This document shows, in pieces, positions 54,406 through 57,139 of a stretch of 64,000 nt of DNA. The position numbers were made by a program, and so were the translations under genes. Below the pieces are notes generated by a model. The model had not been told where the DNA came from and made no database searches. It saw only the letters and a list, made by a program, of their open reading frames with translations. This DNA is from Cyanobacteria bacterium FACHB-DQ100. GTDB lineage: Bacteria; Cyanobacteriota; Cyanobacteriia; Leptolyngbyales; Leptolyngbyaceae. Position 1 is the stretch's first letter; every line of letters starts with the position of its first letter. The DNA lies in assembly GCA_014695195.1 (NCBI GenBank), contig JACJNW010000028.1, positions 1,054,001 through 1,118,000 on the forward strand, written 5' to 3'.

Positions 54406-54607
54406 TTAGCGTCTGTGCCCTGTTTGTCTCCTTGGCACGGGTGGGGGTCGAGAATTTGTTTTAATGGGTCTATGAGGGTCGTGGGCTGTTACTTTGCACT
54501 TACTTTTCAGTCCATCCTCGTTAGCCTGTACGAAACCATCCTGCTTCTCCTGCGGGGTAAGGGACTAAAGGATGAGTGTCTGTGGGCAAATTCTAAAGAG
54601 GCAAATC

Positions 54608-57139
54608 ATGGACGTTTTAGAGCGGGTGGAATGGCTGCGGCAGCGGACGGAATTCTCTAGTCTGTCATCGGAAGCGTTGCAGGCGATCGCGCAACAGGTT
54701 CAAGAACAACAGGTTCAAGAAAATCGCCGCCTTGGACTCGAAGACACGCAGCCTGAAGCACTCTACATTTTGTACGACGGGCATCTTGAGCGGTATCGCA
54801 CCAGTAAAACGGGCTTGGCAAAGGTCACGAGCTTAATTCCAGGGTCGATCGTCTATCTCAAAGAACTGTTGCTCGATCGCAAGGCAGAAGAAACCACAAT
54901 TACCCTGAATGACTGTGTGATCTGGACAATTCCACGGGAGGCATTCAAAGCGATCGCTCAACAGTTTCCCGAAATTGCTCAAGGCGTTTCGCAGCAGCTT
55001 GCCACGCAGTTAGAGGAAGTGTCTTCGCAACTTGCTTATGAGCGGGAACAACAGATCGCCTTGCGTCCTTATCTTGTTCCAAAAGTTAAACGCGGCATTG
55101 TGGGAACCAGCCGCTATGCAGTGCGACTGCGGCAAGACATTAAAAAAGCCGCCAGCGATCGTGGTTCTGTCTTAATCTTTGGAGAGCCGGGACTGGAAAA
55201 AGACAATACTGCGGCGTTAATTCACTTTGGATCGAGCGATCGTAAAGAGCCATTAATCAAAATCAACTGCAACACGCTACAACCGAGCGGCGCAGAAATC
55301 TTTGGGCGAACGGGTAAGCCTGGATTGCTCGATTGGATTGGGCGCGGCACCATTATGCTGAACAATCTCGAAGATATTGCGCCGGAGTTTGAAGAAAAGT
55401 TGGTGCAGCTTTTGAAGACGGGGAAGTTTACGCCGATCGCACGCGAAGGAGAACCGGAACCAGAAGCCCGATCAGTTGAAGCGAGGCTGCTCATGACTTC
55501 TGAGAAGATTCTACCGCGATTGGAAAAATGTAAGCTAATTACTCATGTGATCAAGGTGCCACCCCTGCGAGTCAGAAAAGCGGATATTGCCGTTCAAGCA
55601 GAGTATTACTTGAGTTTAATTGCTCGATCGCGAGGCATCTCTAAGCCCAAGATTACACCCGAAGCGTTACGCCGACTTCAAGGTTATGACTTTCCTGGAA
55701 ATCATGTCGAACTTGAAAGTCTATTGGGACGGGCAATTACTCAAGCAGAAAGCCCAGAACTCACCGAAGAGGTGTTCTGGGCAGCAGGCAATAAAAATCG
55801 TCGATTTCGGGTCAATCTGCTTAATGCTTATCCACGATTGCGGCAATTCCTCAGGAGTCCCTGGTGGCCAGATCGGATCAATTACGGCTTTACCTTGGGA
55901 GCTTTTGCAGTTATCGTCACCGTGTTAATGGTGGCACCGCAAAGCCGCGATCGTAACTTCGCCTTGAATCTATTCTGGGCATGGTGGTGGATGCTGATTC
56001 TGGTTGCATTCCCCTTTGTGGGACGGCTTTGGTGTGCGGTTTGTCCATTTATGATTTACGGCGAACTGGCGCAAAAGATTTCTCTCTGGCTCTATCCGCG
56101 TAAGCTACAACCCTGGCCCAGACAAGCGGCTGAGAAGTGGGGCGGTTGGTTTTTGTTTGGTATGTTCACGCTGATTCTACTGTGGGAAGAACTGTGGAAC
56201 TTAGAAAATACGGCTTATCTATCGGGCTATTTATTGTTGCTGATTACGGCTGGAGCCGTTATCTTTTCTGTGTTGTTTGAGCGGCGATTTTGGTGTCGAT
56301 ATCTCTGTCCGATCGGGGGCATGAATGGCTTATTTGCTAAACTTGCCATGATTGAACTCCGAGCACAGCAAGGAATTTGTTCTGCAACTTGTACGACCTA
56401 TCAGTGCTACAAAGGCGGGCCGCAAAAAGGCGAAGGCATGGAAACTGGAGGCTGTCCCATCTATTCACATCCAGCGCAGCTCCGGGACAATCGCGATTGT
56501 GTGTTGTGTATGACCTGCCTGAAAGCTTGTCCTCACCGATCGGTCGAACTCAACCTGCGTCCACCGGGAATTGAACTATGGACTACCCATCAACCGACTT
56601 ATCCTGAAGTTTGCTTATTGTTTCTGCTGTTTGGAGCCGTGTTTTTGCATCGGCTTCCTGCAATCCAACAGCTACTGGATATCAATCTACATCTTGATCA
56701 ATTTAGCTACCACGCGATCGTCTCGGTTCTTGCTTTGATGTTGCCCGGAGCCATTGCACTGTTGTTCGATCAAATAATGAGGCTGTTCAATCGACGATCG
56801 CGCCCTTTTCTTGAACTCGCATATGGTTATCTCCCGCTGGTTTTAGGGGCGAGTTTAGCGTACTACTTACACTTGGGACTAAACGAAGCAGGACGCATTC
56901 TTCCGGTGACGGCTGCAACCTTCGGCGGTAGCACAGAACTGATGGCAACCTTACCGATCGCAGTCGCTCATCCCGCTGTGATTGAATTCTTACAAGCTGT
57001 CACGATCGCGGGATCGTTCTGGTTGAGCGTCTTGCTCACGCAAAAAATTGCTCGACAGCCGATCCGATCGCTTCTCCTGCAACATAGCGCAATGGTGCTG
57101 CTTGGATCATTGGTATGGCGGTTAATCGTTGTTGCCTAG
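54608..57139 (+). CDS. Fusion of cNMP-type sensor, degenerate sigma54-activator AAA domain and membrane 4Fe-4S polyferredoxin
   Basis: This 843-residue protein joins three modules. Residues ~10-150 resemble a cyclic-nucleotide-binding fold (EALYILYDGHLERYR, PGSIVYLKELLLD). Residues ~160-390 resemble a sigma54-interaction AAA domain, but Walker A is GEPGLEKD, Walker B is GTIMLNNL instead of GGTLFLDE, the GAFTGA loop is absent and the sensor II NVREL is NHVEL. Residues ~425-843 are a NapH/NosR-type membrane part with many helices, CAVCP (476), CRYLCP (563) and a 4Fe-4S motif CVLCMTCLKACP (631-642), plus CSATC and GGCPIY clusters. Start set by GAGG before ATG 54608. Redox signalling at the membrane is an inference. 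Confidence 0.8.
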   Translation: MDVLERVEWLRQRTEFSSLSSEALQAIAQQVQEQQVQENRRLGLEDTQPEALYILYDGHLERYRTSKTGLAKVTSLIPGSIVYLKELLLDRKAEETTITLNDCVIWTIPREAFKAIAQQFPEIAQGVSQQLATQLEEVSSQLAYEREQQIALRPYLVPKVKRGIVGTSRYAVRLRQDIKKAASDRGSVLIFGEPGLEKDNTAALIHFGSSDRKEPLIKINCNTLQPSGAEIFGRTGKPGLLDWIGRGTIMLNNLEDIAPEFEEKLVQLLKTGKFTPIAREGEPEPEARSVEARLLMTSEKILPRLEKCKLITHVIKVPPLRVRKADIAVQAEYYLSLIARSRGISKPKITPEALRRLQGYDFPGNHVELESLLGRAITQAESPELTEEVFWAAGNKNRRFRVNLLNAYPRLRQFLRSPWWPDRINYGFTLGAFAVIVTVLMVAPQSRDRNFALNLFWAWWWMLILVAFPFVGRLWCAVCPFMIYGELAQKISLWLYPRKLQPWPRQAAEKWGGWFLFGMFTLILLWEELWNLENTAYLSGYLLLLITAGAVIFSVLFERRFWCRYLCPIGGMNGLFAKLAMIELRAQQGICSATCTTYQCYKGGPQKGEGMETGGCPIYSHPAQLRDNRDCVLCMTCLKACPHRSVELNLRPPGIELWTTHQPTYPEVCLLFLLFGAVFLHRLPAIQQLLDINLHLDQFSYHAIVSVLALMLPGAIALLFDQIMRLFNRRSRPFLELAYGYLPLVLGASLAYYLHLGLNEAGRILPVTAATFGGSTELMATLPIAVAHPAVIEFLQAVTIAGSFWLSVLLTQKIARQPIRSLLLQHSAMVLLGSLVWRLIVVA

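Follow-up and report, generated by a model that had tools for sequence, protein, structure and literature searches.

What a protein built around a sigma54-activator-type AAA+ domain does in a phylum reported to lack sigma54 is the question raised by a single gene in the 64,000-nucleotide stretch of the Cyanobacteria bacterium FACHB-DQ100 genome analysed here (contig JACJNW010000028.1; hereafter, the window). The encoded protein consists, in order, of a CRP-fold (cNMP_binding) domain, the AAA+ domain, and a membrane part containing 12 cysteines. In the initial annotation, it was read as a cyclic nucleotide sensor fused to a dead activator domain and a membrane polyferredoxin. Below, we consider each part in turn, and then weigh what the whole might do.

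A three-part protein with a CRP-fold front end

The gene is a real open reading frame (ORF) of 843 codons for amino acids (Table 1). A second in-frame ATG lies ahead of the assigned start, at 54572, but a methionine is found at the position of 54608 in many aligned orthologues, and a likely ribosome-binding site precedes the latter codon at a spacing of six bases. A Pfam search returned matches for all three parts: cNMP_binding at residues 37-119 (1.1e-9), Sigma54_activat at 164-298 (5.8e-13), AAA_lid_14 at 321-391 (2e-10), and Fer4_5 at 540-579 (1.4e-10). All of these lie above the curated cut-offs, so that the domain matches are not due to chance, and they persist when the three parts are scanned one by one. 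An AlphaFold2 (AF2) model of the whole protein, of usable quality (pLDDT 74.9, pTM 0.51), likewise contains a CRP fold, an AAA fold of the type seen in bacterial enhancer-binding proteins (bEBPs), and predicted membrane helices. The module searches and structure prediction that the initial annotation had proposed as checks thus bear out its ORF, coordinates, and division into three modules. A chance or assembly-made fusion is ruled out, since the identical domain order recurs in many other genomes. Pfam scans of the query gave no helix-turn-helix (HTH; E up to 1) and no other output domain such as a kinase or cyclase, and membrane helices come after the AAA lid.

Table 1. Features of the fusion gene and its product, in window coordinates.
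Feature	Position	Strand	Basis
Likely ribosome-binding site, AAAGAGG, 5' of ATG 54608	54595..54601	+	Sequence read
Whole gene, 843 aa, group-A family member	54608..57139	+	ORF; relatives in other genomes
CRP-fold domain, residues 1-120	54608..54967	+	PF00027, 42.6 bits (domain scanned alone)
Long helix from CRP fold to AAA, residues 122-163	54971..55096	+	AF2 secondary structure
Sigma54-activator-type AAA+ domain and lid, residues 164-391	55097..55780	+	PF00158, 53.2 bits; PF25601, 42.2 bits (scanned alone)
Walker A remnant GEPGLEKD, residues 192-199	55181..55204	+	Lys198 in 160/160 rows
Walker B position, NN for DE, residues 252-253	55361..55366	+	Aligned rows
Sensor II remnant GNHVEL, without Arg, residues 364-369	55697..55714	+	Alignment
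First membrane CxxCP, C476 and C479	56033..56047	+	Cys in 160/160 rows
Second membrane CxxxCP, C563 and C567, Fer4_5	56294..56311	+	PF12801; Cys in 160/160 rows
Eight-Cys ferredoxin-like segment, predicted cytosolic	56378..56530	+	Cys in 160/160 rows
C-terminal five-helix membrane part, residues 665-842	56600..57133	+	AF2; conservation

Conservation is given throughout relative to a family alignment of 160 rows, in which three groups can be told apart: A, containing the query protein (120 rows); B, a paralogue (37 rows); and C, a picocyanobacterial form (3 rows). The alignment was obtained by reducing 194 candidate ORFs to 159 with score, start, and duplicate filters and then adding the query, so that the window protein occupies two rows, Q and L009; in addition, the P-loop rule places a single member of group B (L171, 38% identity) in group A.

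On structure comparison of the AF2 model, residues 1-123 or so match the CNB domains of PKA, PKG, and EPAC at Z scores of about 16-17. The long helix that follows, which we take to resemble the dimer helix of CRP, runs into a stretch near residues 150-165 where pLDDT drops to about 50. The designation as a cNMP sensor is not supported, because the presumed phosphate-binding arginine is not conserved: taking residue 94 or 95 as equivalent by eye to CRP Arg82, an arginine is present in 27 of the 120 group-A rows and in none of the 37 group-B rows. The domain shares with CRP/FNR sensors and CNB domains its fold and, in the query, a Pfam score above the cut-off, but differs from them in this unconserved arginine and in having no HTH after the domain. 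Ligands other than cyclic nucleotides are possible; the CRP-family regulator NtcA, for example, binds 2-oxoglutarate (PMC12937710).

An AAA+ domain without the parts for sigma54 work

By the same comparison, residues 167-394 match PspF and NtrX at Z scores of about 19. What the query has in common with sigma54 activators (NifA, NtrX, PspF, and FleQ), to whose listed rows its AAA domain is 20-28% identical, is the AAA+ fold with its lid. Unlike them, it lacks GAFTGA, the Walker B acids, and any HTH match, its Arg-finger segment is replaced or shortened (as judged by eye from alignments), and its genome yields no sigma54 match. Loss of the Walker B acids, as first described, is confirmed by the two asparagines of the query and extends in part to the family: glutamate occurs at position 253 in 0/160 rows, and aspartate at position 252 in 0/120 rows of group A, 17/37 of group B, and 3/3 of group C. 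All three groups have thus lost the catalytic Walker B glutamate; the first acid has been lost from group A, and groups B and C retain it in part. The loss of GAFTGA is equally clear, with the motif in none of the 160 rows and the corresponding query segment absent or shortened in our alignments, including that against NifA. Careful alignment recovered neither an intact Walker pair nor GAFTGA, and the Walker A loop is itself altered, to GEPGLEKDN. Taken together, the absence of GAFTGA and of the Walker B acids supports the earlier view that the domain is probably unfit for work with sigma54. The sensor II arginine is missing from the query, as had been noted, but its loss is not a family trait, since the 120 group-A rows contain lysine at this position in 57 cases and arginine in 13.

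Whether such a domain should be called dead is a separate matter. Hydrolysis of ATP is very unlikely given these substitutions, and that much of the description stands. The word is too strong in regard to nucleotide binding, which is possible because the P-loop lysine is invariant (160/160 rows) and the NN pair resembles Walker B mutants that do not hydrolyse; indeed, the structural matches include solved Walker B mutants of PspF and NtrC1, some of them ATP-bound. A better label would be "hydrolysis-dead, possibly nucleotide-binding". Among the best matches of the query in both sequence and fold is VpsR, an atypical bEBP that is sigma54-independent, soluble, and DNA-binding; the resemblance lies in the bEBP-type AAA domain, and the query differs in terminating in a membrane Fe-S part. 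We also observed two proteins in genomes of another class of the same phylum (L061:5252-7231, - strand; L062:5254-7587, + strand) that carry two tandem sigma54-activator AAA domains each, with Pfam scores of 447 and 411 bits.

A search of the query's own genome (99.92% complete) for sigma54, which had been suggested as a check, gave no matches to Sigma54_AID (PF00309) or Sigma54_DBD (PF04552), and the same scans detected sigma54 in the E. coli, B. subtilis, Caulobacter, and Bacteroides controls. For this genome, then, the statement that cyanobacteria lack sigma54 is supported, in agreement with a survey in which all 29 cyanobacteria examined were without sigma54 and its activators (PMC3162934). 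The only AAA_lid_14 match in the genome is the fusion protein itself. A canonical sigma54 activator is consequently ruled out: GAFTGA, Walker B, HTH, and sigma54 were each looked for, and all are absent. When 386 genomes of the phylum were scanned with PF04552, 11 matches were obtained, two over the cut-off and one of them strong (62 bits), the last being a 202-aa ORF (L209:1459-2067, - strand) in genome G125, of the same class. This ORF comprises the sigma54 DNA-binding part only, the activator-interaction part being absent in the scans made. Since G125 also encodes a group-A fusion (L019, 65% identity), one genome can contain both the fusion and a sigma54-like fragment. The 202-aa ORF may be a remnant of sigma54, or a repurposed sigma54 HTH.

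The membrane iron-sulfur part and its stand-alone relatives

The membrane part has nine predicted helices in the AF2 model, and all 12 of its cysteines are invariant (160/160 rows). Eight of these (C591, 595, 600, 616, 631, 634, 637, and 641) form the ferredoxin-like segment, which is predicted to hold two [4Fe-4S] clusters; together with the Fer4_5 match, this pattern supports the original description of a 4Fe-4S-type membrane part with CxxCP motifs, as far as sequence can indicate. All of the cysteine loops are predicted to face the AAA side, with 24 lysines and arginines on that side versus 2 in the opposite loops. E667, Y739, E760, and Q796 of the C-terminal membrane part are nearly invariant in the family alignment. 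AF2 models the cysteine loops poorly (pLDDT below 50 at residues 583-650); the membrane half modelled alone reaches a pLDDT of 75.4 and a pTM of 0.75. It has no match in the PDB by Foldseek (best E 0.62) or VIA-align (best Z 5.6), which does not in itself make the fold new. Two histidines are common in the family, His681 (117/120 rows of A, 37/37 of B) and His752 (114/120 of A, 34/37 of B), but position 752 is tyrosine in the query and the histidine is absent from the three group-C rows; heme in the membrane part is not supported by the sequences.

The earlier designation of this part as NapH/NosR-type proves loose. The NapH/MauN model TIGR02163 aligns with residues 470-648, spanning both membrane cysteine motifs and the ferredoxin segment, at 53.6 bits against a cut-off of 213, and PRK09477 matches the membrane half at 38.8 bits against 234. 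The NosR model gives 17 bits against a cut-off of 1000 over 49 positions with the membrane half as query. The likeness to NapH/MauN consists of two membrane cysteine motifs followed by a ferredoxin-type segment, whereas the five further predicted helices after this NapH-like core and the cytosolic CRP-AAA half are absent from the NapH model.

Deinococcus ficus and haloarchaea have stand-alone proteins related to the membrane half, with no CRP or AAA half attached. Seven annotated plasmid records contain such proteins, covering 84-97% of the membrane half at 23-30% identity. The D. ficus protein aligns over 97% of the membrane half and keeps all 12 cysteines, and because the membrane half stands alone there, it can work as a unit. 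In the three haloarchaeal copies that we aligned, four of the eight ferredoxin-segment cysteines are missing. In D. ficus, a gene for a His-rich protein without a Pfam match (L151:7042-7968, + strand) overlaps the stand-alone 4Fe-4S gene by four bases. A plasmid of Sulfurovum mangrovi contains two 4Fe-4S genes in one run (L211:7037-12267, + strand), adjoining TonB receptors and a 2-hydroxyacyl-CoA dehydratase/activase pair; the first of the two is distantly related to the membrane half, with 84% coverage and 21.8% identity.

Distribution, gene neighbours, and candidate functions

The family is widespread. Among 388 genomes of the class, 261 have a relative, complete or in part, with an E value no weaker than 5e-51 (hand count; 287 matches to a group-B query less 26 weaker than this threshold), and about a third of the sample has no relative or weak matches only. 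At E 0.001, matches are present in 191 of the 386 genomes sampled from the phylum, in many cases through the NapH-like or AAA part alone; 29 foreign loci among these matches have 62-75% identity to the query. The best 80 named loci of at least 571 confirmed stretches all carry cyanobacterial titles, with identities to the query of up to 96% over the best segment. Group B shares about 36-39% identity with the query and has GKT in Walker A; matches to the group-B query at 57% identity or more were found in 45 genomes of the class sample (hand count). The CRP part is kept in 36 of 37 group-B rows, being absent from L060, and is missing from all three group-C rows and from three group-A rows (L066-L068). 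When a tree was built from 36 rows of the membrane half (bootstrap not settled), groups B and C were each supported at 100/100; the root is unsettled because the tree leaves group A open and the outgroup branches are very long. The annotation of one group-B relative reads "nitrogen assimilation regulatory protein", and that of another "cyclic nucleotide-binding domain-containing protein".

Gene neighbourhoods differ between the groups. Across 19 group-A loci of about 20 kb, whose neighbours are unannotated, there is no widely conserved neighbour, and hence no partner is pointed to for group A. One broad gene cluster is present at five group-A loci and also near groups B and C. The most specific group-A neighbours are common to only three loci (L041, L042, and L044), where a gene encoding 401-498 aa lies next to or near the fusion; a nearby gene at these loci begins, by eye, like the circadian kinase SasA. 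Of the 28 group-B loci taken, some of which came from scans other than the class sample, 19 have cysK downstream and on the same strand (among these 19 are L154, L155, L188, L193, L196, L198, L199, L200, L202, L205, and L206); in group A, by contrast, cysK is found in the flanks of only 2/80 loci and 2/19 of the longer ones. The gap between the stop-to-stop ORFs is within about 540 bases in 17 of the 19 cases; one cysK representative passes the cysK model at 429 bits, and two of the 19 loci are plasmid-borne. Genes for psbA, rhodanese, cytochrome bd, Rieske petC, DsbA, and FeoB, named from one representative each, occur near group B in 3-7 of 28 loci apiece, with the psbA, cyd, and FeoB counts standing without a control. 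The surroundings of the cysK-linked loci resemble a sulfide or low-oxygen gene island.

Regulation of the gene by NtcA is not supported, as the site GTAN8TAC occurs in 6 of 74 upstream stretches versus 5.7 expected from shuffles. Best Fur-like scores of at least 13/19 were obtained for 7 of 74 upstream stretches, compared with 2.7% of random stretches from the same loci; we draw nothing from this, because the upstream stretches hold more intergenic sequence.

The explanation that we consider best, with confidence and doubt about evenly balanced, is that the protein transfers electrons at the membrane and carries its own control scaffold in the cytosol, rather than being a transcription factor. 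Under this explanation, two ferredoxin-type [4Fe-4S] clusters would be held by the cysteines, alongside a membrane cysteine set, and electrons would move between a carrier in the cytosol and the membrane, with either the quinone pool or a metal on the membrane side. A ligand or nucleotide would be bound, without hydrolysis, by the CRP-fold and AAA parts, and the scaffold that they form may keep the protein as a dimer or ring, thereby opening and closing the electron path. Electron transfer is favoured by the invariant cysteine motifs, by the Fer4_5 score and the alignment with the NapH model, and by the placement of the charged cysteine loops on the AAA side; a non-transcriptional role is favoured by an AAA domain stripped of the parts for sigma54 work, with neither an HTH nor a sigma54 match. 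Against electron transfer we count the lack of a widely conserved neighbour, NapH-family scores far below their cut-offs, the poor AF2 modelling of the cysteine loops, and the fact that a pure sensor would look identical by sequence. A more specific version is unlikely as a whole, namely that an ATP-holding, hydrolysis-dead bEBP-type ring acts as a nucleotide-gated switch on an Fe-S path between cytosolic ferredoxin and the quinone pool, providing a regulated electron valve in about two thirds of the sampled class genomes, with a sister form beside cysteine synthase for sulfide or low oxygen.

The Fe-S clusters might instead report the state of the membrane, with the CRP-AAA scaffold signalling to a partner protein, so that electrons are read and not routed. 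Such a redox or gas sensor, which we regard as possible but doubtful, would account for a cytosolic half made of signalling-type domains, and the company of group B (frequently cysK; less often psbA, cytochrome bd, and rhodanese) is what one might see for a response to sulfide or low oxygen. However, Pfam gives it no output domain and the neighbourhoods no partner gene, the large conserved C-terminal membrane part exceeds the needs of a sensor, and the rarity of cysK near group A means that the group-B context need not hold there. The protein could also be a metal redox helper, acting on iron or copper at the membrane by reduction or oxidation, in the manner of FtrD (of FtrABCD) or CcoG, which are metal redox proteins. 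On two Azospirillum plasmids, the matching 4Fe-4S gene comes after genes for iron transport and FTR1; one of these plasmids also has an annotated cupredoxin gene, and on the other a transposase gene lies in between. A relative in Natronorubrum is found in an island with genes for a metal regulator, for metal transport, and for P-type ATPases, and the D. ficus relative overlaps the gene for a His-rich protein. Nevertheless, the similarity in Azospirillum is confined to the NapH-like core (35-54% of the membrane half), and the other four haloarchaeal loci are mixed: one has nickel-type ABC transporter genes on the other strand, two have chromate or arsenite genes some kilobases away, and one has none of these. 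With no conserved neighbour for group A and an unconvincing upstream Fur-like score, we think it improbable that metal handling is the main role. Two of these readings, redox sensing or electron routing outside transcription, had already been proposed in the initial annotation, and their union remains the likeliest account that the sequences suggest; we rank electron carrying above redox sensing, and redox sensing above metal handling.

Activation of transcription from the membrane with a sigma70-type factor deserves mention chiefly since the solved structures most closely related to the AAA part include that of VpsR, an example of a bEBP working in this way. TyrR and DhaR also work with a sigma70-type factor (PMC3162934). 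Still, a tethered activator would have to do without any HTH recognised by Pfam, with membrane helices after its AAA domain, and without the catalytic glutamate in every row, and we give it hardly any credence.

In the literature that we searched, which excluded most subscription journals, we found no study of this fusion protein. Its parts are known; within that literature, there appears to be no description of the fusion, of how widely it occurs, or of the sister group linked to cysK. Sigma54 is reported absent, yet about two thirds of the sampled class genomes keep a sigma54-activator-type relative fused to an Fe-S membrane protein. If electrons are indeed routed or sensed by it, the protein would be an uncharacterised piece of photosynthetic or respiratory electron control, for which the cysK-linked sister form offers a second concrete handle (sulfide or low oxygen). 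The double Walker B replacement, kept by selection, also provides a natural case in which the role of a bEBP-type domain can be tested without hydrolysis. Finally, AAA_lid_14 matches are found in Synechococcus elongatus, which suggests that the fusion protein may be present in a model strain.
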